The notes beneath the pieces were generated by a model. It was not told the DNA's origin, did no database searches, and saw only the letters and a program-made list of their open reading frames with translations. From positions 1 to 40,434 of IMG/VR virus record IMGVR_UViG_3300046167_000085: a stretch of 40,434 nucleotides of DNA; one strand, 5' to 3'. The DNA is from a virus. The position numbers and the translations under genes are program-made. Shown in pieces: positions 23,316 through 39,518 of the stretch. Position 1 is the first letter of the stretch; each line of letters starts with the position of its first letter.

Positions 23316-24978
23316 TGTTCCAGAACAACTTAAAGACTTTAGAAACTTTACATACCTTGTATGGCAGCATTTAGGACTGCCAGAGCCTACTGAGATACAG
23401 TATGACATAGCACACTATCTTCAGGATAGTCCTAAGCGTTGCATCATTGAGGCTTTCCGTGGTGTAGGTAAGTCTTACATTACTGCTGCCTACGTAGTAC
23501 ATCAGCTACTGCTTGACCCTCAACTAAAGTTTATGGTTGTGTCAGCGTCTAAGGCACGTGCCGATGACTTCTCTACCTTTACTCAGCGTATCATTATGGA
23601 ACTGCCTATATGTCAGCACCTAGTCGCTAAGGAAGGCCAGAGATGGTCTAAGATAGCCTTTGACGTAGCACCTGCTAAAGCCTCTGGTAGCCCCTCAGTA
23701 AAGTCTGTGGGTGTCACAGGACAGCTTACAGGTAGCCGTGCAGACATTATCATTGCTGATGACGTAGAAGTCCCTAACAACTCTATGACACACATGATGC
23801 GAGAGAAGCTAGGAGAGACTGTCAAGGAATTTGATGCTGTTCTCAAGCCTGAGGGTAAGATTATCTACCTTGGTACACCTCAAAACGAGATGTCCCTATA
23901 CAATGCCCTACTAGCACGTGGATACGAGATGAGAGTATGGCCTGCTAGATACCCTAGCCTAGAACGCGCAGAGAAGGCTTATGGGGGTAGGTTGGCTCCT
24001 CTCCTGTATGATTCTATACAAACTAACCTAGAGGCCGTGTATGGGCTTCCTACAGACCCTAAACGATTTGATGACACAGACTTACTGGAAAGAGAACTAA
24101 GTTATGGTAGAAGTGGCTTTGCTTTGCAATTTATGTTGGATACTTCACTATCTGATGCAAACAAATACCCCCTTAAACTAAGTGACCTAATGATCTACTC
24201 CTGTGACAAGGATACTGCACCTGAGAAACTAGTGTATGGTATCTTTAAGCCTCTTAACGAACTACCCAACGTAGGACTAGCAGGAGACAAGTTCTACGCC
24301 CCTGAGGACACCATAGGCAGGGCTGAGTACACTGGTAGTGTCTTAGCCATTGACCCCTCTGGTAGAGGCTCTGACGAGACAGCATACGCTGTTGTTAAGA
24401 TGTTAAACGGTTTCCTACACGTAGTAGACTGTGGTGGTGTTGAGGGTGGCTATAGTGATAGTACGCTGCAACATCTAACAGACTTGGCTAAGATACATCA
24501 GGTAAACATGGTGTTGGTTGAGAGTAACTTTGGTGACGGTATGTTTACTGAACTACTAAAGCCCTACTTACTGAAGACCTATCCTGTGACGATGGAAGAA
24601 GTTAGACACAGTAAACAGAAAGAACACAGAATAATAGATACCCTAGAGCCTGTTATGAACCAGCACAGGTTGGTTGTAGACCCTAAGGTAATACAAAAGG
24701 ACTACGACAGTACTCAACACATGCCACCAGATAAGGCTGCTAAGTATATGCTAGCCTATCAGATGACACGTATAACAAAACAAAGAGGGGCATTAGCACA
24801 TGACGATAGACTTGACGTACTTGCTATGGCAGTGCAGTACTGGTCAGACCAGATGGCTGCTGATGCAGATACAGAAATACGAACAAGAAAAGAAGAATTA
24901 CTTGAGGAAGAACTAGACAAGTTTATGGATGGTTTTAACTTCGGTAATAAACCTAGAGAATCCTTAGGGTTTTTCTAA
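23305..24978 (+). CDS. Large terminase subunit (DNA maturase B, T7 gp19-like)
   Basis: The 557-residue product is the packaging motor (586 residues in T7). Residues 51-57 (FRGVGKS) form the Walker A loop, and residues 146-154 (DIIIADDVE) Walker B. The C-terminal nuclease domain begins near 348 (AIDPSGRGSDETA), with the closing acidic motif HDDRLDVLAMA near 498-508. The start is ATG 23305 or 23308 and overlaps the preceding gene by 11 bases. The gene ends the late region; a 657-bp gene-free stretch follows. Confidence 0.97.
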   Translation: MMTNVPEQLKDFRNFTYLVWQHLGLPEPTEIQYDIAHYLQDSPKRCIIEAFRGVGKSYITAAYVVHQLLLDPQLKFMVVSASKARADDFSTFTQRIIMELPICQHLVAKEGQRWSKIAFDVAPAKASGSPSVKSVGVTGQLTGSRADIIIADDVEVPNNSMTHMMREKLGETVKEFDAVLKPEGKIIYLGTPQNEMSLYNALLARGYEMRVWPARYPSLERAEKAYGGRLAPLLYDSIQTNLEAVYGLPTDPKRFDDTDLLERELSYGRSGFALQFMLDTSLSDANKYPLKLSDLMIYSCDKDTAPEKLVYGIFKPLNELPNVGLAGDKFYAPEDTIGRAEYTGSVLAIDPSGRGSDETAYAVVKMLNGFLHVVDCGGVEGGYSDSTLQHLTDLAKIHQVNMVLVESNFGDGMFTELLKPYLLKTYPVTMEEVRHSKQKEHRIIDTLEPVMNQHRLVVDPKVIQKDYDSTQHMPPDKAAKYMLAYQMTRITKQRGALAHDDRLDVLAMAVQYWSDQMAADADTEIRTRKEELLEEELDKFMDGFNFGNKPRESLGFF

Positions 24979-24993
24979 TCTGTACCTCTTAGG
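24974..24993 (+). promoter_or_regulatory. Putative phage RNA-polymerase promoter, copy 3 (phiOR-like position)
   Basis: TCTAATCTGTACCTCTTAGG shares the first 14 positions (one variable) with 30870-30889 and 39499-39518. It starts at the stop region of the large terminase gene, where T7 carries promoter phiOR at the right end of its genome. The element looks like a T7-type promoter: a conserved recognition block followed by an A/T-rich -4 to -1 zone and a G. The assignment rests on sequence identity plus position. Confidence 0.65.
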
Positions 24994-25001
24994 CTAGACC
25001 C

Positions 25002-25077
25002 CTGTTACATAGTATAGTATAGGTATATGTTAAAGTATGTTTAACTATACCTTTACTATGTTGTACTTTGTGTAACA
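25002..25077. repeat. Large A/T-rich inverted repeat downstream of the large terminase
   Basis: Nested complementary arms are CTGTTACA (25002-25009) with TGTAACA (25071-25077), CATAGTA (25008-25014) with TACTATG (25054-25060), and GGTATATGTTAAA (25022-25034, one bulged T) with TTTAACTATACC (25040-25051) around loop GTATG. Together they can form a cruciform or a long RNA hairpin. No T tract follows. It could stop transcripts, protect an end or mark the packaging region. Confidence 0.6.
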
Positions 25078-25164
25078 CAGACGTTGTAGTTATTCTGATA
25101 GAGGAGTAACACAACTGTGCTTAAACAATGTGGCAGAGATGTGTAGGGTGTTTAAGATGGTGTT

Positions 25165-25185
25165 AGATTTTTTACAGAAAAATCT
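25165..25185 (+). other. Short perfect hairpin overlapping the -35 element
   Basis: AGATTTTT (25165-25172) and AAAAATCT (25178-25185) form an 8-bp stem around TACAG. It overlaps the -35 hexamer of the promoter at 25171-25200. It may be an operator-like dyad or an incidental A/T palindrome. Confidence 0.4.
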
Positions 25186-25200
25186 GAGGGGGTATATAAT
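25171..25200 (+). promoter_or_regulatory. Sigma70-type early promoter
   Basis: TTTACA (25171-25176; five of six to TTGACA), an 18-base spacer and a perfect TATAAT (25195-25200) read toward the early genes. Host-type promoters in the gap ahead of the first early gene are expected, since the phage polymerase has not yet been made. Transcription would start near 25207, placing the repeat array and leader unit in the transcript's 5' end. Confidence 0.65.
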
Positions 25201-25230
25201 AGTATAGAACGCGCGACACCCCCCTCGACA

Positions 25231-25355
25231 TGTCAAACTTTCAGTATAACACGCGACAGCATGGCTTGTCAATGTCAAACATTTGACAACAGTGTCAAAC
25301 ATATGACGCCTGAGTGTTGCAAATGTGCAACATGTGTGACATTTGTGCAACATGT
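25231..25355. repeat. Phased array of short repeats (TGTCAAAC and TGTGCAACATGT)
   Basis: TGTCAAAC occurs at 25231, 25273 and 25293, with starts 42 and 20 bases apart. Copies 2 and 3 each form the left half of a dyad (GTCAAACATTTGAC 25274-25287, perfect; GTCAAACATATGAC 25294-25307, partial). TGTGCAACATGT then occurs at 25324 and 25344, again 20 bases apart, and the first overlaps the dyad GTTGCA-AATG-TGCAAC (25316-25331). A further TGTCAAAC lies at 25475. Spacings near two and four helix turns suggest cooperative protein binding. T7 has short-repeat arrays beside its terminal repeat. Confidence 0.7.
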
Positions 25356-25523
25356 TTGTGTCTCTCTCTATCTATTCTTTTTATTTCAAACAATCTCAAA
25401 CTTTCTTTCATAATCTTTTCAATCACTTAGCCTATGATTCACAATTTTTATCTATTTTTTTGCATTTTGTGGGTTGTCAAACATCTCAAGGCATGATCTA
25501 GTAATGGTCATCAAGGGGACGCA

Positions 25524-25553
25524 ATGCCACGGCAGACAATCCTTGAAGCCTAG
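25524..25553 (+). CDS. Possible 9-residue leader peptide
   Basis: AAGGGG (25513-25518) lies 5 bases before ATG 25524, which opens MPRQTILEA and stops at TAG 25551-25553. The stop lies inside the left arm of the stem-loop at 25548-25589. A good ribosome binding site on a tiny frame that ends in a hairpin suggests a regulatory leader. No homologue is known to me, and translation is unproven. Confidence 0.35.
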   Translation: MPRQTILEA

Positions 25554-25589
25554 CCACCTTAAACGGTACGTCCAAACTAGGGGCTAGGC
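25548..25589 (+). other. Stem-loop in the early leader
   Basis: GCCTAGCC (25548-25555) pairs perfectly with GGCTAGGC (25582-25589) around a 26-base loop. It follows the possible leader peptide and lies 46 bases before the first early gene. No T tract follows. A related CTAGGGGC sequence recurs in the hairpin at 25853-25876. Confidence 0.5.
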
Positions 25590-25635
25590 GAAACAGACTA
25601 GAAGACAACGCAATAAAGCAAGAGGATTTAAGACA

Positions 25636-25836
25636 ATGGCATACAAAGTAAACAAAAAAGCTACAGTTACCATGACGTTTGATGAACATGAATTAACGTC
25701 CTTATGGTTAGCCTTGGATTTGAAAGCCAAGGAAGATTTGAAAGAATATAACCACGTTTTCCGCAATACTCAAAAACTGTTTGACATGATTGACAAAGCT
25801 GGTGATGAATTAAACAAAGCATTGGATGCCGAATAG
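25636..25836 (+). CDS. First early gene, small protein of unknown function
   Basis: The 66-residue product is charged and mainly helical (KVNKKATVTMTFDEHELTSL, then KAKEDLKEYNHVFRNTQKLF). It has no Cys and no membrane segment. AGAGGA lies 9 bases upstream of the ATG. As the first gene after the early promoter region it is a likely host-takeover factor, as T7 genes 0.3-0.7 are, but it resembles none of them. Confidence 0.78.
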   Translation: MAYKVNKKATVTMTFDEHELTSLWLALDLKAKEDLKEYNHVFRNTQKLFDMIDKAGDELNKALDAE

Positions 25837-25905
25837 GCTTGACATTCTAAACGCTAGGGGCGATGATGTCCCTAGCACTAACCAAAGGGGCTTGACATGT
25901 TAAAC
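25836..25905 (+). promoter_or_regulatory. Two direct repeats carrying -35-like TTGACA, with a hairpin between
   Basis: GGCTTGACATNNTAAAC occurs at 25836-25852 and 25889-25905. The first TTGACA (25839-25844) has GATGAT 17 bases downstream. The second (25892-25897) has TATTTA 18 bases downstream. Between them GCTAGGG (25853-25859) pairs with CCCTAGC (25870-25876). Both are plausible weak early promoters; the hairpin may insulate or regulate them. Confidence 0.45.
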
Positions 25906-26004
25906 ATTCTAATTGTATTTATATTCTTACTAGGCATCACCGGCTTTGCCTTGTTCATAGGTAGCATGATTGCTGCAATCTGTAACGACTATTTTGAGGG
26001 GTAA
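25897..26004 (+). CDS. 35-residue membrane protein
   Basis: ATG 25897, with AAAGGGG upstream, opens a frame whose first 28 residues are almost entirely hydrophobic (LNILIVFIFLLGITGFALFI, then GSMIAAI), ending CNDYFEG. The stop lies 5 bases before the ATG of the GP88 gene. Its start overlaps the second TTGACA repeat. Such tiny single-span proteins are common in early regions of T7-like phages. The function is unknown. Confidence 0.6.
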   Translation: MLNILIVFIFLLGITGFALFIGSMIAAICNDYFEG

Positions 26005-26008
26005 GATA

Positions 26009-26713
26009 ATGAAACTCAAGTTATTAGGGGTTGGCACTAACGCCAAGACAACAAAGGGTGACGGTAGCGAGTACCTAACAGCTATCCTATACCTTGCGCC
26101 AGCAGATACAGTAGACGGAATAAACCTATGCCCTATGGCAGTGCTAGCAGGGTGCAAGGCAGGGTGTCTTTACAGTGCTGGCAGGGGTGCTATGAATAGC
26201 GTTCAAGTAGCAAGACAGCGCAAGACTATTCTATGGCGGGACAATCGTGGCGAGTTTATTGCACAATTACATGATGACTTGATAGCGTTTCGCAAGTATT
26301 GCCTCAAGAAAGGTATCAAGCCAGTAGTCCGATTGAATGGCACTAGTGATATACATTGGGAAAGACACATAGATATGGCTGGCGAGTATCCAGAAATACA
26401 ATTCTATGACTATACAAAAGACGTAAAACGTGCTAAGAAAGTCTTGCCTAGTAACTATCACTTGACGCTATCCTATAGCGAGGCAAGCCAGCGTTATAGT
26501 GATATGGTACTAGATGCAATGCAATCAGCCAAGGGTAGTAACATGGCAGTCGTGTTTAGACACAAGGATAAGATGCCAACGACTTATAAGGGGTTCACTG
26601 TAGTAGATGGTGACAAAGATGACTTGCGTTTTCTTGATCCTAAAGGGGTAGTCGTGGCCTTGTATGCTAAAGGTAAAGCAAAGCAAGACACTAGTGGATT
26701 TGTAATAGGGTAA
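26009..26713 (+). CDS. GP88-family phage protein (function unknown)
   Basis: The 234-residue product starts at ATG 26009, after GAGGGG; an upstream TTG extension would overlap the membrane protein and is less likely. The N-terminal motif LGVGTNAKTTKG, then the Cys-rich stretch INLCPMAVLAGCKAGCLYSA (about residues 36-55; C-x7-C-x3-C), and RLNGTSDIHWER (about 103-114) match the GP88 family first named in mycobacteriophages. The remaining sequence alternates strands and helices (FYDYTKD, NYHLTLSYSEAS), as in an alpha/beta barrel. The conserved Cys could bind metal or an Fe-S cluster; this is inference. Confidence 0.85.
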   Translation: MKLKLLGVGTNAKTTKGDGSEYLTAILYLAPADTVDGINLCPMAVLAGCKAGCLYSAGRGAMNSVQVARQRKTILWRDNRGEFIAQLHDDLIAFRKYCLKKGIKPVVRLNGTSDIHWERHIDMAGEYPEIQFYDYTKDVKRAKKVLPSNYHLTLSYSEASQRYSDMVLDAMQSAKGSNMAVVFRHKDKMPTTYKGFTVVDGDKDDLRFLDPKGVVVALYAKGKAKQDTSGFVIG

Positions 26714-26726
26714 GGGGTAAAATAAA

Positions 26727-26843
26727 ATGACCAAGGTACAAAAAATATATAGACTTCTCATTGAATATGGGGTATCAAAAGAAGAAGCAGCATACGCAGC
26801 TAACAAACTAGTAAAACTTAACAACACAACCAAGAGGAACTAA
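26727..26843 (+). CDS. Small protein (38 aa), UBA-like helical pattern
   Basis: ATG 26727 follows TAAGGGGTAAAATAAA and opens 38 residues: MTKVQKIYRLLIEYGVSKEE followed by AAYAANKLVKLNN. The helix-GVSKEEA-helix arrangement resembles small UBA-like three-helix folds but is too short to assign. The stop lies 4 bases before the next ATG, whose ribosome binding site (GAGGA) is in this gene's last codons. Confidence 0.6.
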   Translation: MTKVQKIYRLLIEYGVSKEEAAYAANKLVKLNNTTKRN

Positions 26844-26847
26844 ACCA

Positions 26848-27039
26848 ATGCTTAACATTATCAAAAACCTATTCACTAAGCCAGCAACAACAGCGCGTCC
26901 AGTCTTGACCATTGATCAGGTACAGTTTAGACGTACCACCAAGCGATACGGCAAGCTGGGTACATTCAGCACCAACAAGGGCTATCTGTTAGCGCAACGT
27001 GACACAGTGTCAGGCAAGTTTGTAAAGGTAAAGGGCTAG
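26848..27039 (+). CDS. Small early protein, unknown
   Basis: This 63-residue basic protein begins MLNIIKNLFTKPATTARPVL and ends in a beta-like segment (KRYGKLGTFSTNKGYLLAQR, VSGKFVKVKG). GAGGA precedes the ATG. It is packed between other short early genes with gaps of 2-4 bases. No family is recognised. Confidence 0.68.
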   Translation: MLNIIKNLFTKPATTARPVLTIDQVQFRRTTKRYGKLGTFSTNKGYLLAQRDTVSGKFVKVKG

Positions 27040-27041
27040 TC

Positions 27042-27242
27042 ATGGGCATGTACATAGACACGGCATATCCTGACATAACACAAGACGCTAGGCTTGCTAG
27101 TATCCTAACCAAGATGAAGGCACTAGCAGTCCAGATAGAAGATGCTGAGTGGGAAGGGCAGGATGTATCAAGCATGAGGCAACAGCTATCAGGTCTAAAG
27201 GCTAGGCATGATGATGGCGCAACATATGAACCACTGTTTTAA
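27042..27242 (+). CDS. Small early protein, unknown
   Basis: The 66-residue protein starts at ATG 27042 or 27048. Its core is a helical segment (DARLASILTKMKALAVQIED, SSMRQQLSGLKARHDD). No Cys or membrane segment is visible. It begins 2 bases after the previous stop. The function is not recognised. Confidence 0.66.
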   Translation: MGMYIDTAYPDITQDARLASILTKMKALAVQIEDAEWEGQDVSSMRQQLSGLKARHDDGATYEPLF

Positions 27243-27253
27243 GGATTAAGCTA

Positions 27254-27373
27254 ATGACTGATACACCAACAATCTACATAGATGGTGAATACCTACCAGC
27301 AAAGTGGGAATGGCACGACAATGACGTTGTTTCGCAGTGGGTTTTAGTAGTAGTAGACGGAGAAATGACATGA
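27254..27373 (+). CDS. 39-residue early protein
   Basis: AAGGATTAAGCTA precedes ATG 27254. The product (MTDTPTIYIDGEYLPAKWEW, then HDNDVVSQWVLVVVDGEMT) looks like two or three beta strands with several Trp. The stop overlaps the next start as ATGA at 27370-27373, a translational-coupling arrangement that supports both genes. Confidence 0.55.
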   Translation: MTDTPTIYIDGEYLPAKWEWHDNDVVSQWVLVVVDGEMT

Positions 27374-27591
27374 CTTGGACACCTAAGGCATCAACCAAGG
27401 TGGTGATAGAGTTAGACTTTGATGGACACTGCATGGATGACAACGCACTGAAGCACTGTGTCTTTGACTATCTATGCCAGCTAATGGATGACGATAACCT
27501 ATACTATGAGACTTACCTTTATGGGGTTGACAACGACAACGAACCTATGCTAAGACTGGTAGATGATGATGAAAATAACACCAGTCACTAA
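27370..27591 (+). CDS. Small acidic early protein
   Basis: ATG 27370, overlapping the previous stop, opens 73 residues: TWTPKASTKVVIELDFDGHC, then ALKHCVFDYLCQLMDDDNLY and a very acidic end (DNDNEPMLRLVDDDENN). A frame extension to 27337 lacks a ribosome binding site. Acidic small early proteins often mimic DNA or bind host enzymes; that is only a possibility here. Confidence 0.65.
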   Translation: MTWTPKASTKVVIELDFDGHCMDDNALKHCVFDYLCQLMDDDNLYYETYLYGVDNDNEPMLRLVDDDENNTSH

Positions 27592-27623
27592 AGCAATCAT
27601 GCAATCAAGACGGAGACAAAGCA

Positions 27624-27905
27624 ATGCCAAAGAAAAATGCACACCAGTTAGCTTGGGAAAAGCTACAAGCAACAGCAAAGAAGGAACGACTAGAAACACA
27701 AGCAAAACTAAAGAAGGTACTGACTGATGAGCAGTATCGTGTATTGATAGATACCTTTAAGATTGTTGATCGCATACATGACAATGCAACAGAAATGAAT
27801 GATCTTTATATGTCAGACATCAGGATGCTAACCAGTGTATGGTATGGTCATGGTCAGTACAAGAAGGGTGTTGTTGAATTTATTTGGAGACATGATGATG
27901 CCTAA
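27624..27905 (+). CDS. Small helical protein, unknown
   Basis: GGAG lies 8 bases before ATG 27624. The 93-residue product is Lys-rich and helical in the first half (AWEKLQATAKKERLETQAKL), then TDEQYRVLIDTFKIVDRIHD, and ends VVEFIWRHDDA. It overlaps the next gene by 8 bases. No family is recognised. Confidence 0.7.
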   Translation: MPKKNAHQLAWEKLQATAKKERLETQAKLKKVLTDEQYRVLIDTFKIVDRIHDNATEMNDLYMSDIRMLTSVWYGHGQYKKGVVEFIWRHDDA

Positions 27906-28092
27906 CTACAAGCAACAAGAGACACGCAACAAGTATGATGATGCCTATGTCATGGGATACCACAACGGCTATCATGGCTTGACATATGACAACCAGTATG
28001 ATAAGAATGATCAGGCTCAGTATCATATCAAGTTTAAGATGGGCTATGTTCAAGGCGAGTTAATGCGTACCAATGAGGGGACAGACAAATGA
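27898..28092 (+). CDS. Small Tyr/Gly-rich protein with repeated GY..G motif
   Basis: Three ATGs lie in a row (27892, 27895, 27898). GGAG at 27886-27889 is best spaced (8 bases) for 27898. The 64-residue product contains YVMGYHNGYHGLTYDNQYD and IKFKMGYVQGEL. The paired 'GY..G' units recall ribosome-modulation-factor-like small phage proteins (GY..G..G then Y...W/F..G), an untested likeness. The stop overlaps the start of the next gene. Confidence 0.62.
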   Translation: MPNYKQQETRNKYDDAYVMGYHNGYHGLTYDNQYDKNDQAQYHIKFKMGYVQGELMRTNEGTDK

Positions 28093-28274
28093 GTATGGGT
28101 TTCAAACAATGTGATATGTGTGGGGATGGTGAGGCAGAAGCACTATACGCAGTGGATGGTATGATTGAGTGGTTCTGTCCTGAGTGTAACGCGAGGTGGG
28201 CAGTGGAGTCTACTGAATACGAACAAGTATCAGCACACCAGCACTGGATGATGCGTCACTATGGGGAGGAATGA
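28089..28274 (+). CDS. Small zinc-ribbon protein
   Basis: This 61-residue protein has two CxxC knuckles: CDMC at residues 8-11 and CPEC at 30-33, separated by GDGEAEALYAVDGMIEWF. This is a zinc-ribbon arrangement. The C-terminus is His/Trp-containing (AHQHWMMRHYGEE). GGGG lies 8 bases upstream of ATG 28089, which overlaps the previous stop. Phage zinc ribbons often bind nucleic acids or host enzymes; no partner is indicated. Confidence 0.7.
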   Translation: MSMGFKQCDMCGDGEAEALYAVDGMIEWFCPECNARWAVESTEYEQVSAHQHWMMRHYGEE

Positions 28275-28429
28275 TGGAAGGTTTTGTTTGGCTTTGTTTA
28301 CTGGCTATCCTAGTCAGTGGTTTGTTAGGACATAACACAGACAACGAAGTCTATATGGGATTACAATTTGTATTTATGTTAGGCATGATCGTAGGCGTAC
28401 CAATCCTATCAGTAATACTATACATGTAA
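28274..28429 (+). CDS. 51-residue two-span membrane protein
   Basis: ATG 28274 (or 28271), after GGGGAGGA, opens two hydrophobic segments: VWLCLLAILVSGLLG (residues 5-19) and LQFVFMLGMIVGVPILSVIL (30-49), joined by HNTDNEVYMG. It overlaps the zinc-ribbon stop and ends 13 bases before the RNA polymerase start. Its function is unknown. Confidence 0.62.
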   Translation: MEGFVWLCLLAILVSGLLGHNTDNEVYMGLQFVFMLGMIVGVPILSVILYM

Positions 28430-28442
28430 CAGGGGTGTGGCT

Positions 28443-29216
28443 ATGGGGTACAGTTTAGAACAACAGCTTGAATTAGAAAGAGAAATGCTGAACGCTGGCA
28501 TCAACAGGTTTAGGCGTGTGATAGATGAGGCAGTAGGCAAGGGCAGAGAGACACGCACACTGCATGGCAGGACTATGATTGCCACAGTGGTAGGCTCAGT
28601 AGCTGAAGGGGTAAAGCAAGTACAAGACACACCCACCAGCAACAGGGACGTAGCCTACAAGAAGCTGCAAGGCATGAAGCCTGACGCTGTAGCATACATA
28701 GCCCTAGTCTCTATGGTTGATGGCATCAGCAAGGCTCAAGCCTTGGTTAAAGTAGCAAAGAATATTGGTGTCAACGTAGAGATGCAAGACAGGCTAGAGA
28801 AGTGGATCGAAGCAGAAGGGGATGTAGCAAGGAACACAATCAAGAAGGCCAACGAAAAGGGTACGACAGCTAGACGCTACGGCCTGACTAACAAGATGAA
28901 CAAGGATGGATACAAACATCTAGCATGGACAGGTGATCAACGTATCCATGTAGGCATGAAGCTGGTTGATGTAATCATCAAGAACACAGGGCTAGTCAGA
29001 CTGGAAAGGCTATCGACTAGTAGAAACAAAACGACTACATATCTTAGGGCAACACCCATCACAGAGGAATGGGTCAAGGCATTTAATTCACACATGGAAG
29101 TATCAAGACCACGCTGGACACCATGTATCGTACCACCCAAGGACTGGACAGACACAGAGGGGGGTGGATACTACGCAGATTTCTTAGACCCATTGAGTAT
29201 AATCAGGAGAGGATAG
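28443..29216 (+). CDS. Phage RNA polymerase, N-terminal part (T7 gp1-like, split)
   Basis: ATG 28443 follows AGGGG at 8 bases. The 257-residue product corresponds to the N-terminal promoter-handling domain of T7 RNA polymerase. It includes GRTMIATVVGSVAEGVKQVQ and TPTSNRDVAYKKL, and ends with PPKDWTDTEGGGYYADFLDP then LSIIRRG, equal to the T7 stretch before residue ~280 (PPRPW..ITGGGYWA...PLALVR). The TAG at 29214-29216 cuts it where T7 runs on. The continuation opens at 29218 in the +1 frame. It is either a real split enzyme or an indel. Confidence 0.9.
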   Translation: MGYSLEQQLELEREMLNAGINRFRRVIDEAVGKGRETRTLHGRTMIATVVGSVAEGVKQVQDTPTSNRDVAYKKLQGMKPDAVAYIALVSMVDGISKAQALVKVAKNIGVNVEMQDRLEKWIEAEGDVARNTIKKANEKGTTARRYGLTNKMNKDGYKHLAWTGDQRIHVGMKLVDVIIKNTGLVRLERLSTSRNKTTTYLRATPITEEWVKAFNSHMEVSRPRWTPCIVPPKDWTDTEGGGYYADFLDPLSIIRRG

Positions 29217-29217
29217 T

Positions 29218-30159
29218 ATGAAGGCACACATGACCAAGCTGAAACAGCGTGACCTATCCCAAGAGTTCGACTGCTTGAACACACTGCAACACACACCATG
29301 GCAGATCAACAAGCCAGTGCTTGAGATCATCCGTAACATGTGGGACAGTGGACAAGAGTGGGCAGGACTACCAGCCAGAGAGGACAGACCACTACCTAGC
29401 TACCCATTCAACAAAGAACCAGCAGCTATGGATGAGGCAGAACGCAAGCTGTTTAAGGACTGGAGTAAGAAACGTAACGAGGTGTATACGTTCAACAACA
29501 AGACTGTAAGCAAGCGCATACAAGTGGAACGCACACTACAAATAGCTGAACAATACAGCAAGTACGATGAGTTCTATTATGTATGGCAGAATGACTTTCG
29601 TTCTCGCAAGTATCCAGCCAGCACATTCCTGTCACCACAGGCAGCAGACTGGAGTAAGGGATTGATGACCTTCAAGGTAGACAAGGCCATCAACAATTGG
29701 GATGACGCACGATGGTTGTGTATTCATGGTGCTAACCTATACGGCAACGACAAGATCACACTAGACCAGCGTGAGGGTTGGGCGTGGGATATAGCAGATG
29801 AGGTTAAGCGTGTGGCTGACAACCCATACGACAACAACTGGTGGCTGGATGCAGACAAACCCTTTCAGTTTCTAGGCTGGTGCTTAGAGTTTGCTGGCCT
29901 AGTCAAGCATGGCTGGGGTTACATGTCCAACCTACCTGTATCTGCTGATGGTAGCTGTAACGGACTGCAACATCTATCAGCTATCCTGCGTGATGAACGT
30001 GGTGGTAGGGCAACCAACCTACTAGCATCTGATGTACCTCAAGACATCTACACTGAGGTAGCAGAGGAAGCAATGCGTAACATCACCAAGGGATGCAGAC
30101 CAAGGCGAAATTCTAGCGAAAAAATTTATAGAGTTTGGCATCGACAGGTCTTTAACTAA
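29218..30159 (+). CDS. Phage RNA polymerase, middle part with catalytic Asp (split)
   Basis: ATG 29218 has AGGAGAGG just upstream, so it could be initiated independently. The first 290 residues follow T7 RNA polymerase: NTLQHTPWQINKPVLEII, then FRSRKYPASTFLSPQAADWS, the HGANLYG motif, and PVSADGSCNGLQHLSAILRD (catalytic Asp near residue 243, T7 Asp537). After NITKG the frame goes wrong: the last ~20 residues (CRPRRNS...QVFN) have no family resemblance. Skipping one base in GGG (30090-30092) continues as DADQGEILAKKFIEFGIDRS in the frame of the next part. Confidence 0.9.
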   Translation: MKAHMTKLKQRDLSQEFDCLNTLQHTPWQINKPVLEIIRNMWDSGQEWAGLPAREDRPLPSYPFNKEPAAMDEAERKLFKDWSKKRNEVYTFNNKTVSKRIQVERTLQIAEQYSKYDEFYYVWQNDFRSRKYPASTFLSPQAADWSKGLMTFKVDKAINNWDDARWLCIHGANLYGNDKITLDQREGWAWDIADEVKRVADNPYDNNWWLDADKPFQFLGWCLEFAGLVKHGWGYMSNLPVSADGSCNGLQHLSAILRDERGGRATNLLASDVPQDIYTEVAEEAMRNITKGCRPRRNSSEKIYRVWHRQVFN

Positions 30160-30166
30160 ACGGTCA

Positions 30167-30868
30167 GTGATGATTGTACCATACAGTGGCACGATACACT
30201 CATGTCGTACCTACATTGAGGAAGCTATGCGTGATAAGATTGAGAAGGGAACACCAGATATATTTGGTGATGACCTATTCGATGCTACCATCTACCTAGC
30301 TAGACATGTGTGGGATGCAATCAACGGTGTGATTACAGCAGCACGACAGGTCATGGACTACATCAAGGATGTCGGTGCTGTCTACGCCAGTCATAACAAG
30401 CACATGGAATGGGTAACACCAACCAACTGGCTGGTCATGCAGAACTACAATGACGTAGAGAAACGTAGGATCACTAGCCTAATCAACGGCAACACAATAC
30501 AGCTAGTACTCAACAGAGATATACCTAACCAAGTAAGCAAGCGGCGTACTGGTTCAGGTGCTAGCCCTAACTTCATCCACTCTATGGATGCAGCAGCTAT
30601 GACTAAGACTATCAATACCTGCAAGCAGCAGGGTATCAGACACTTTGCCATGGTACACGACAGCTATGGTACACACAGTAGCGAGATGCCAAGGCTGTCT
30701 GATGTATTGAGACAAGAGTTTGTTCAGATGTATACTGAACATGATGTGTTGACAATGCTAAGACAACATGCTATTGTCACACTTGGAACTGAGGACGTTC
30801 CAACACCACCGAAGCAGGGTAGTTTAGACATCAACAACGTATTGAAATCACAATACTTTTTTGCCTAG
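30167..30868 (+). CDS. Phage RNA polymerase, C-terminal part (split)
   Basis: The frame is open well upstream of GTG 30167. Family identity begins at least at 30092 (DADQGEILAKKFIEFGIDRS, LTKRSVMIVPYSG). Starting at GTG 30167 would drop the Arg and Lys equal to T7 Arg627/Lys631, so a functional product needs fusion to the previous part. Conserved parts are SVMIVPYSG (Tyr = T7 Tyr639), SGASPNFIHSMDA, and AMVHDSYGTH (second catalytic Asp, T7 Asp812), with ending KSQYFFA as T7 ends in DFAFA. Removing two single bases gives one protein of about 807 residues. Confidence 0.9.
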   Translation: MMIVPYSGTIHSCRTYIEEAMRDKIEKGTPDIFGDDLFDATIYLARHVWDAINGVITAARQVMDYIKDVGAVYASHNKHMEWVTPTNWLVMQNYNDVEKRRITSLINGNTIQLVLNRDIPNQVSKRRTGSGASPNFIHSMDAAAMTKTINTCKQQGIRHFAMVHDSYGTHSSEMPRLSDVLRQEFVQMYTEHDVLTMLRQHAIVTLGTEDVPTPPKQGSLDINNVLKSQYFFA

Positions 30869-30869
30869 T

Positions 30870-30889
30870 TCTAACCTGTACCTATAGCC
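30870..30889 (+). promoter_or_regulatory. Putative phage RNA-polymerase promoter, copy 1 (before SSB)
   Basis: TCTAACCTGTACCTATAGCC lies in the 53-base gap after the RNA polymerase stop. It shares the 14-base block with 24974-24993 and 39499-39518, and it ends ATAG, like the TATAG of T7 promoters. It would drive the replication genes. Confidence 0.65.
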
Positions 30890-30921
30890 TAACTAACTTT
30901 AACAACTAAGGAGAAGTGATA

Positions 30922-31542
30922 GTGATTATCATTAAAGGCAAAGCCCAATGGGCAAAAGTATTTGACCCTGATACACGGTTCGTACCAGAGGGAGAGTACT
31001 CAACACAGGTCATCGTACCTGAGGCAGAAGCAGCAGCAGTGTGTGAACAGCTTGACGGAATTATCCAGACTAAATTCCAAGAGGCTGTCAAGGACAACCC
31101 TAAACTCAAGGCAGTCCTGTCCACAGCTACACCGTACACCAAGGAAGTAGATGACAACGGTGATGAGACTGGCAACCTAGTGTTCAAGTCTAAGCTGAAG
31201 GCACGTATCAAGTCTAAGTCAGGCGAGACATACACACAGAAGCCATCAGTGGTGGATGCCAAGAAGACACCGATGGATAAGTCTATTGCTGTCGGCAATG
31301 GATCAACAGTTAAGATTGCTGTCGAGCCATTCCCCTATGTGATGCAGTCAACCAAGCAGGTGGGTGTGTCACTACGACTGAAGGCTATGCAGGTCATTGA
31401 CTTGGTAGAGTATGGTGCGCCAGCATCTATCTTTGATGAGGAAGATGGGTATGTTGCACAAGCTGTAGCCAAGGACAACAGCAACGACATGTTTGATGAT
31501 GAAGCTACTGCTAGTGATGCCGATGACGAAGGGGACTTTTGA
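30922..31542 (+). CDS. Single-stranded DNA-binding protein (T7 gp2.5-like)
   Basis: The start is GTG 30922, 8 bases after AAGGAG (30908-30913); the in-frame GTG at 30916 is too close. The 206-residue product matches gp2.5 (232 residues): KGKAQWAKVFDPDTRFVPEG at the N-terminus, LKARIKSKSGETYTQKPSVV in the middle. It ends in an acidic tail with terminal Phe (DEATASDADDEGDF), the gp2.5 feature that contacts the polymerase and helicase-primase. It covers single-stranded DNA at the fork. The stop overlaps the endonuclease gene. Confidence 0.92.
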   Translation: MIIIKGKAQWAKVFDPDTRFVPEGEYSTQVIVPEAEAAAVCEQLDGIIQTKFQEAVKDNPKLKAVLSTATPYTKEVDDNGDETGNLVFKSKLKARIKSKSGETYTQKPSVVDAKKTPMDKSIAVGNGSTVKIAVEPFPYVMQSTKQVGVSLRLKAMQVIDLVEYGAPASIFDEEDGYVAQAVAKDNSNDMFDDEATASDADDEGDF

Positions 31543-33748: not shown

Positions 33749-35455
33749 ATGGAATACATATGGGACTTAGAAGCAGACCATCTACTTAAAGAGGTGACAC
33801 AAGTTTGGTGTCATGTCTTCAGGGATGTACACACTGATGAGGTACACACCTTTGACCCAACACAGACGCAAGAAGCATTGGAGTTTATGGACAATGCAAA
33901 GACCTTGATTGGTCACAACATCATCGACTACGACTTGCGTGTGATGAAGAAGCTACACGACTTTACCTTCAAGGGTAAGGTAGTAGATACGTTGGTATAC
34001 TCTAGGACAATCTGGCCTCACCTAAAAGAACTAGACTTCACTATGTACAGCAAGGGTAAGTTCCCTGCTAACATCATTGGTAGTCATAGCTTGAAGGCTT
34101 GGGGCGTAAGGCTAGGAGAATTAAAAGGTGACTTCAATAATCATAGCGAAAGCTTTGCAGCATACACCACCGAAATGTTGGAGTACTGCATCCAAGACAC
34201 AAAGGTTACGCAGAAACTATACGAGAAAATTCTCAGCAAAAATTTTAGCAGCGATGCGTTACATCTTGAACAAGTAATCCACACGCTGCTGATAGGACAA
34301 GAGGAAAGAGGCTTTGACTTTGATGTTGAGGCTGCACAAGAACTGTATGCTAGCCTAGCTGGACGCAAGGCTGACATCGAACAACAGTTGGTAGACACGT
34401 TTGAGCCTACCATCATTGAGTTAAAGACAAAGACTAAGACCATCCCATTCAACCCTGCATCACGGCAGCAGATTGCTGACCGACTGATCAAGCGAGGGTG
34501 GGAGCCTACAGTATTCACTGACAGTGGTGAGCCTAAGGTAGATGAGACAGTGCTGGAAAGCATTGACATGCCAGAGGCTAGACTGCTACAGGAATACCTA
34601 CTACTAAACAAACGCATAGGCCAACTAGCCACAGGCAAACAGGCATGGCTCAAGCTAGAGGAGAACGGCAGACTACATGGTAGAGTAAACCATATGGGTG
34701 CTGTCACATCTAGGTGTACCCACGCCAACCCCAACCTTGGGCAAGTACCCAGCGTTGGTGCAGCCTACGGCAAGGAGTGTCGTTCCTTATTCGTTGCACC
34801 CAAGGGCTACAGCCTGTTAGGTGCTGACGCATCAGGTTTGGAACTACGCTGCCTAGCACACTATATGGCTAGGTATGATGACGGTAACTATGCTAACGTA
34901 GTGTTAGACGGTGACGTACATACCACTAACCAAGAAGCTGCTGGTCTTCCCACACGTTCCAATGCCAAGACATTCATCTATGGATTCTTGTATGGTGCAG
35001 GTGATGAGAAGATTGGTAAGATCATAGGCAAAGGTGCGAAGGAAGGTAAGCGTATTAAGAAGAAGTTTCTTAGCCAGCTACCTGCACTCAAGAAGCTGAA
35101 GGATGCAGTATCCCAAGCAGCAGATGATCGTGGTTACATCAAGGGACTAGATGGTAGGCACACACCTATCCGACACAGCCACGCAGCACTCAACAGTTTG
35201 CTTCAAGGTTGTGGTGCAATCTTATGTAAGACTTGGTACGTATTCATAGCTGATGCTATCAAGAAGGCAGGACTAGATGCTACTATCGTAGCGTTTGTAC
35301 ATGATGAAGTTCAACTAGTAGTAAAGGAAGGTCAAGAAGATGAGACAGGAAGACTTATTCAACAGTGTATGCGAGATGTCGAACACCACTACGGATTCAG
35401 ATGCAGACTCGACAGTGAGTACAAGTACGGACGCAACTGGTCAGACACGCATTAA
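33749..35455 (+). CDS. DNA polymerase (family A, T7 gp5-like)
   Basis: ATG 33749, with GGAG upstream, is preferred to GTG 33734 because the family begins 'DIEAN..L..VT', here WDLEADHLLKEVTQVWC. The 568-residue product has a 3'-5' exonuclease (DLEAD; DTLVYSR; YCIQDTKVT), then polymerase motif A (GADASGLELR, Asp near 358), motif B (RSNAKTFIYGFLYG, near 403) and motif C (VHDEVQL, near 517), ending RNWSDTH like T7 NWAICH. T7's ~76-residue thioredoxin-binding loop is replaced by about ten residues between VDTFEP and IPFNPASRQ. Confidence 0.96.
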   Translation: MEYIWDLEADHLLKEVTQVWCHVFRDVHTDEVHTFDPTQTQEALEFMDNAKTLIGHNIIDYDLRVMKKLHDFTFKGKVVDTLVYSRTIWPHLKELDFTMYSKGKFPANIIGSHSLKAWGVRLGELKGDFNNHSESFAAYTTEMLEYCIQDTKVTQKLYEKILSKNFSSDALHLEQVIHTLLIGQEERGFDFDVEAAQELYASLAGRKADIEQQLVDTFEPTIIELKTKTKTIPFNPASRQQIADRLIKRGWEPTVFTDSGEPKVDETVLESIDMPEARLLQEYLLLNKRIGQLATGKQAWLKLEENGRLHGRVNHMGAVTSRCTHANPNLGQVPSVGAAYGKECRSLFVAPKGYSLLGADASGLELRCLAHYMARYDDGNYANVVLDGDVHTTNQEAAGLPTRSNAKTFIYGFLYGAGDEKIGKIIGKGAKEGKRIKKKFLSQLPALKKLKDAVSQAADDRGYIKGLDGRHTPIRHSHAALNSLLQGCGAILCKTWYVFIADAIKKAGLDATIVAFVHDEVQLVVKEGQEDETGRLIQQCMRDVEHHYGFRCRLDSEYKYGRNWSDTH

Positions 35456-35927
35456 CCCAAAGACAGGCAGACCTTTCTTCTATAAGGATAATCCAGAAGC
35501 AGTTAGAAAGCGTGATGCCAACAGAATGTATGTGAATGGTAAAGAAATTTCTAAGAAACATCCATTACACAAAGCAGGACGTTATAAATCTTTCAATGAT
35601 GCAGCCTTCTCTAGTCTTGAGAACTATGAACGTAGTACTGAGGGCATGGTCTACATCATTACCAATCCAGCGTGGCCTAAGTGGGTTAAGATTGGTATGG
35701 CTGTTGATGCTGACGATAGGTGCAACGGCTACCAGACAAGCAGCCCCTTCCGTGACTACGAGGTAGTAGCCACTATCAGCACTAACGACAGACGTAAGGC
35801 TGAGGCTATCGCACATCAGATAGCAGAGGGCATGGCTAGTGATCGCAGGAACGAATGGTTCAAGCTAAAGAAAGCACAGGCAAGACAGGTACTAGTGCAG
35901 GTAGAGGAGAAGTTAAATGGACTTTGA
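35340..35927 (+). CDS. T5orf172/GIY-YIG-like domain protein
   Basis: ATG 35340 has AAGGAAGG upstream and overlaps the polymerase end by 116 bases; ATG 35376 is an alternative. The 195-residue product has a Ser/Thr/Asp-rich leader (12-35), then NPKTGRPFFYKD and a C-terminal T5orf172 domain, related to GIY-YIG nucleases: GMVYIITNP (about 101-109), WVKIGMAVDADDR (about 113-125), YQTSSPFRDYEVV, then RKAEAIAHQIAE and NEWFKL. The GIY-YIG-type Tyr, Gly, Arg and Glu appear to be present. It may be a nuclease against host or rival DNA, or a homing-type relic. Confidence 0.85.
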   Translation: MRQEDLFNSVCEMSNTTTDSDADSTVSTSTDATGQTRINPKTGRPFFYKDNPEAVRKRDANRMYVNGKEISKKHPLHKAGRYKSFNDAAFSSLENYERSTEGMVYIITNPAWPKWVKIGMAVDADDRCNGYQTSSPFRDYEVVATISTNDRRKAEAIAHQIAEGMASDRRNEWFKLKKAQARQVLVQVEEKLNGL

Positions 35928-39498: not shown

Positions 39499-39518
39499 TC
39501 TAAACTGTACCTATTAGC
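39499..39518 (+). promoter_or_regulatory. Putative phage RNA-polymerase promoter, copy 2 (before structural genes)
   Basis: TCTAAACTGTACCTATTAGC begins at the base after the RNR stop. It shares the 14-base block with 24974-24993 and 30870-30889. It would drive the small gp6.7/gp7.3-like genes and the head genes, matching T7's class III promoters. Confidence 0.65.

Follow-up and report, generated by a model that had tools for sequence, protein, structure and literature searches.

The stretch of DNA analysed here, referred to as the window, is the IMG/VR virus record IMGVR_UViG_3300046167_000085, 40,434 bases in length. Protein scans showed that its RNA polymerase (RNAP) is surrounded by an autographivirus (T7-type) gene set, which includes portal, scaffold, capsid and tail proteins, terminase, ssDNA-binding protein and endonuclease, together with primase/helicase, family A DNA polymerase, exonuclease, MazG and ribonucleotide reductase. 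An ORF at 35340-35927 overlaps the 3' end of the DNA polymerase gene; it contains a T5orf172/MUG113 domain and has a weak match to a homing-endonuclease PHROG. The RNAP itself is spread over three frames, at 28437-29216, 29218-30159 and 30092-30868, the last of which covers 30167-30868 if counted from its GTG start.

The first of these frames corresponds to the N-terminal promoter-binding domain and C-linker of a T7-family RNAP and is referred to as subunit 1 (28443-29216, + strand, with GTG 28437 as an alternative start). It is matched by the Pfam family RPOL_N over 28437-29216 (5.9e-13) and by PHROG 414 over positions 5-257 of 816, and it aligns to residues 34-298 of T7 RNAP. The two downstream frames, both of which are matched by the Pfam family RNA_pol (PF00940), together make up the catalytic part (subunit 2; 29218-30868, + strand), with thumb, palm, fingers and the C-terminal FFA, and this part is broken in the window record at 30090-30092. 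Using the intact copy from the relative L004 as the query, the catalytic part aligns to T7 RNAP residues 313-883. The two subunits are about 259 and 549 residues long, respectively. The homology to T7 gp1 that had been noticed through all three frames from the sequence of the window thus holds in both the Pfam matches and the T7 RNAP alignment. In the subclades to which the window belongs, the DX2GR motif (29593-29607 in the window) reads DFRSR, with Gly replaced by Ser; the Gly is kept in the relative L105 and in fused relatives such as Pasto.

At the first junction (29214-29220, + strand), subunit 1 ends in TAG (29214-29216), which is followed by a single T and then by the ATG (29218-29220) that starts subunit 2. 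The original prediction named both codons correctly, but described the ATG as following at once, whereas one base lies between the two. It had also given this junction a ribosome-binding site of its own, and a Shine-Dalgarno (SD)-like AGGAG is indeed present at 29205-29209 (+ strand), within the end of subunit 1 and ending 8 nt before the ATG.

Relatives were gathered by searching IMG/VR with the C-terminal part, which provided 60, and by a profile scan that added more, plus 80 from GTDB genomes. Amongst the 220 loci that were scored, 115 are split, 90 are fused and 15 are undecided (contig ends or other); the split loci include a few contigs fetched twice and represent about 100 contigs with separate cistrons. 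Every relative in which both sides of the junction are available is split at this place, and no fused RNAP with at least 47 % identity to the catalytic subunit of the window was found among the fetched relatives. The N-terminal domain lies upstream as a cistron of its own at 113 of the 115 split loci, and the two loci at which it was unmatched are both near the start of their contig. The distance from stop to start is -1 in 54 split loci, +4 in 19, +6 in 16 and +2 in 15, with a few others; the -1 class consists of ATGA, GTGA or TTGA overlaps, the +6 class has an in-frame stop, and the relative frame of the two cistrons takes all three possible values. A start codon (ATG, GTG or TTG) adjoins the stop of the first cistron in nearly all split members. 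An SD-like tetramer precedes subunit 2 in 31 of 33 representatives of the clade of the window, as against 1 of 12 fused sisters. In the fused sisters the homologous stretch mostly encodes [MLI]-[IV]-K-T with AAG or AAA, and most split members have arginines with AGG at the SD-like stretch.

Two members depart from this compact arrangement. In L105 about 975 nt, holding five small ORFs, separate the subunit cistrons, and a clear SD is absent at the catalytic start. These five ORFs (L105:2779-3755) mostly have overlapping stops and starts and belong to no family of known function. None of the five matched a homing endonuclease, and Rfam gave no intron RNA for either the window or L105, hence invasion by an intron or a homing endonuclease between the halves was rejected. 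In L120 a short near-duplication around the stop and start (near 580-645) shifts the start of subunit 2 to an unusual spacing of +22.

On these comparisons the split at the first junction is real and conserved. Its conservation, the three frame relations and the gene gap in L105 exclude a sequencing error at this site, as well as readthrough or any fixed frameshift. The idea of a two-part enzyme, with a promoter-binding N-terminal part and a catalytic part, which had been put forward as conceivable, is strongly supported at this junction by about 100 relatives. The removal of one base at each site had been expected to restore a continuous frame in reads or relatives if the breaks were not genuine; at the first junction the relatives are split.

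In a maximum-likelihood tree built from the catalytic part, all 34 representatives of the clade of the window are split and their sister clade consists of 12 fused sequences. The split clade has an SH-aLRT support of 100, and 100/100 in a more careful tree with the same topology of split versus fused sequences; it consists of metagenome contigs throughout. A second split group comprises the pelagiphages HTVC041P and Eyrgjafa, the metagenomic Deep1-GF2-KM23-C739 and contigs from SAR11 single-cell or metagenome-assembled genomes, and the fused HTVC011P is nested in it. A single split clade was rejected by AU tests (p 0.00055, or 0.0015 with HTVC011P added), and with it the common descent of the two splits. 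The split or fused label needs three changes on the tree, a count that cannot separate gain from loss of the split. These tests indicate that the split in the clade of the window is independent of that in the pelagiphages.

Some further features of individual members were seen. HTVC011P (L226) is fused among the split L227, L228 and L177, which may reflect refusion or repeated splitting in close pelagiphages. The catalytic subunit of L018 (4110-5756) is a mosaic, with an N-terminal part like the L044 group and a C-terminal part nearly identical to the group of the window, which points to intragenic recombination or to a chimeric assembly. Upstream of the split RNAP of L105, an integrase-like ORF (L105:727-1816; tyrosine-recombinase motifs recognised by eye) is followed by a tRNA gene, which suggests that some members may be temperate.

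Taken at the level of genes, the pair very probably encodes a heterodimeric RNA polymerase of the T7 family, produced by coupled translation and assembled non-covalently. Subunit 1 would supply the C-linker and the domain responsible in T7 for promoter binding and melting and, at a later stage, for part of the RNA exit channel. Subunit 2 would supply the catalytic domain, which includes thumb, palm, fingers and the specificity region. Both would be translated separately from one message, with closely coupled termination and initiation and with the ribosome-binding site inside the end of the first cistron. The subunits are expected, from homology, to associate across the normal domain interface, and the heterodimer would transcribe the middle and late genes of the phage from a T7-like promoter. 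A further version of this scheme, which we regard as unlikely, is that subunit 1 acts as a dissociable, sigma-like initiation factor that opens the promoter and then leaves or is exchanged after promoter escape. If that were true, the phages would control promoter use through the ratio of subunit 1 or through its identity, and a split at the C-linker would also abolish the tethered domain rotation that T7 uses in passing from initiation to elongation.

Production of a single polypeptide across the first junction, by programmed frameshifting or stop readthrough, appears very unlikely. An SD-like AGGAG just before the stop is found at some frameshift sites as well, however members of a single clade would need different shifts, namely +1, 0 (readthrough) or +2/-1, the halves of L105 are separated by other genes, and a start codon lies next to the stop in nearly all members.

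The heterodimer reading agrees with several signs of function in both halves. Equivalents of T7 D537, R627, K631, Y639, H811 and D812 are present in subunit 2, at invariant columns of the alignment with relatives. For comparisons that are neither saturated nor near-identical, dN/dS ranges from 0.06 to 0.25 for subunit 1 and from 0.08 to 0.16 for subunit 2; for subunit 1 it is 0 against L006. These ratios indicate that purifying selection acts on both halves. AlphaFold2 modelled subunit 1 with fair confidence (pLDDT 78) except for the last 33 residues, which form the C-linker, and in a Foldseek search the model matches T7 RNAP elongation complexes best (E 5e-9).

A candidate phage-RNAP promoter, TCTAACCTGTACCTATAGCC, lies just after the RNAP stop (30870-30889, + strand), and many members of the split clade have a motif like TTCTAAACTGTACCTATAGCC in the corresponding position. 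After the RNAP gene, 13 of 34 representatives carry it with 0-3 mismatches, compared with a mean of 9 and a minimum of 4 in shuffled sequences; this test is descriptive, because the motif was taken from the same clade. The motif search placed a second candidate copy, TCTAATCTGTACCTCTTAGG, around the end of the terminase gene (24974-24993, + strand) and a third, TCTAAACTGTACCTATTAGC, after the ribonucleotide reductase gene (39499-39518, + strand). The motif, which can be written TCTAAnCTGTACCTnT or TTCTAACCTGTACCTATAGCC, thus occurs at three module boundaries of the window (24974, 30870 and 39499, + strand). Its CTATAG core resembles the T7 promoter, and for this reason the motif is a candidate for the cognate promoter of the phage RNAP. 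Scans for host promoters and terminators in 24900-31000 gave nothing clearly beyond chance.

It could be argued that the RNAP of this clade is a decayed pseudogene that is out of use, and the catalytic gene of the window itself is interrupted. We consider this highly improbable, since both halves are under strong purifying selection across the clade, the active-site residues are kept, a conserved promoter-like motif follows the gene and the subunits are full-length in all other contigs; for the clade, the selection, the kept residues and the full-length subunits refute it.

The second break is different in kind from the first, for the first is found in all relatives with both sides available and the second in none. 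It lies in a run of G at 30090-30092 (+ strand), and all relatives that span this position are continuous there, as had been named beforehand as the outcome, after removal of one base, that would speak against a genuine break; relatives that carry the catalytic subunit whole have it at 542-549 residues. Against 14 near relatives, the GGG run of the window differs by 1 nt in length, and over about 8 kb no other coding indel is private to the window. The C-terminal protein is 97-100 % identical between the window and these 14, and after the break it has no amino-acid change relative to L004, L005 and L006 (pN = 0). As no relative has the break, the indel is the sole private one in coding sequence and the protein downstream is unchanged, the second break is, judged from this comparison, an assembly or sequencing error or a private mutation of the window record, and lies outside the two-part system. 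The alignment also confirmed that re-initiation at GTG 30167 would drop the equivalents of T7 R627 and K631, because these residues are just upstream, in the frame opened at 30092.

A real and possibly regulated +1 frameshift site at this place, giving a three-part or frameshift-controlled enzyme, is extremely improbable. The frame change is present in the window record and the downstream part is free of amino-acid changes relative to L004-L006, however a regulated site would be expected in the 14 near relatives, all of which are continuous, and the frameshift-controlled polymerase of the original prediction is left unsupported. That both breaks are errors in an ordinary continuous RNAP gene, as is probably true of the second with its short G run and continuous relatives, has a virtually negligible chance for the pair, since about 100 contigs have the first, as do deposited isolates from a second lineage, some members have in-frame stops there and L105 has five ORFs between the halves.

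The position of the cut can be compared with other enzymes of the family. In the joint alignment, the natural split of the window falls at T7 residue 300/301, with the last residue of subunit 1 at T7 300. As the C-linker of T7 RNAP covers residues 251-296 (PMC3961267), the cut falls just past it. T7 RNAP split between 301 and 302 works once the halves are joined by photodimerizers (PMC13304687), and a transposon screen recovered five tolerated bisection seams (PMC4299498). The engineered enzyme split at 301/302 and the window share the same boundary between N-terminal domain and catalytic part, however the former is man-made and brought together by dimerizers that were added to it, whereas association of the natural pair has to occur unaided. 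One of the five seams from the transposon screen is reportedly at 301-302. T7 and other Autographiviridae have a single-subunit RNAP that is homologous from end to end and shares the catalytic residues, and this is one polypeptide, whereas the clade of the window has two cistrons in all members.

The expectation of novelty for a naturally split phage polymerase was too strong, as N4 RNAPII (gp15 and gp16) is an active heterodimer of the T7 family (PMC4496689) and the RNAP of HTVC019P-type group III pelagiphages is fragmented into two ORFs, a condition judged not recent by the authors (PMC6811365). N4 RNAPII (Schitoviridae) and the RNAP of the window, which is known from its genes, are both of the T7 family, with two phage-encoded subunits from adjacent genes. 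However, in the joint alignment N4 is split at T7 453, after the thumb and DX2GR, so the cut of the window at 300/301 is not of the N4 type. N4 RNAPII has a truncated N-terminal part and works with gp1 and gp2, whereas the window genome has a T7-type gene set; no match to a virion RNAP was found in a general scan of the window proteins. The difference in split site speaks for an origin independent of N4 RNAPII. The group III pelagiphages and uv-Fonsiphage-EPL (Stopavirus/Fussvirus) share with the window two RNAP ORFs and almost the same split site. HTVC041P and Eyrgjafa, each deposited with two RNA polymerase CDS, and Deep1-GF2 are split at about T7 290-295 in the joint alignment, and the window, with its cut near T7 290-300 between the N-terminal domain and the thumb, agrees with this pelagiphage type in split site. 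The pelagiphage enzyme is nevertheless a separate lineage, with catalytic parts about 35 % identical to those of the clade of the window.

The polymerase of the window clade is apparently an independent and widespread split variant that is so far undescribed. The literature searched contained N4 RNAPII and the pelagiphage remark and no description of the split RNAP of this clade. Amongst the annotated phage records of the collection none is at least 60 % identical to the catalytic subunit, the best among the matches listed being below 40 %. T7 RNAP is the model single-chain polymerase, and from the gene arrangement we infer that a large group of uncultured marine phages makes this type of enzyme as two proteins. 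The T7-type RNAP would then have been cut at least twice independently, at a boundary also used by engineers, and the cut kept throughout a widespread clade of marine phages, in which a ribosome-binding site accompanies it. Natural halves have to come together with no dimerizer supplied, which makes them candidates for orthogonal split polymerases. They also allow a test of whether promoter escape and elongation need a covalent C-linker.
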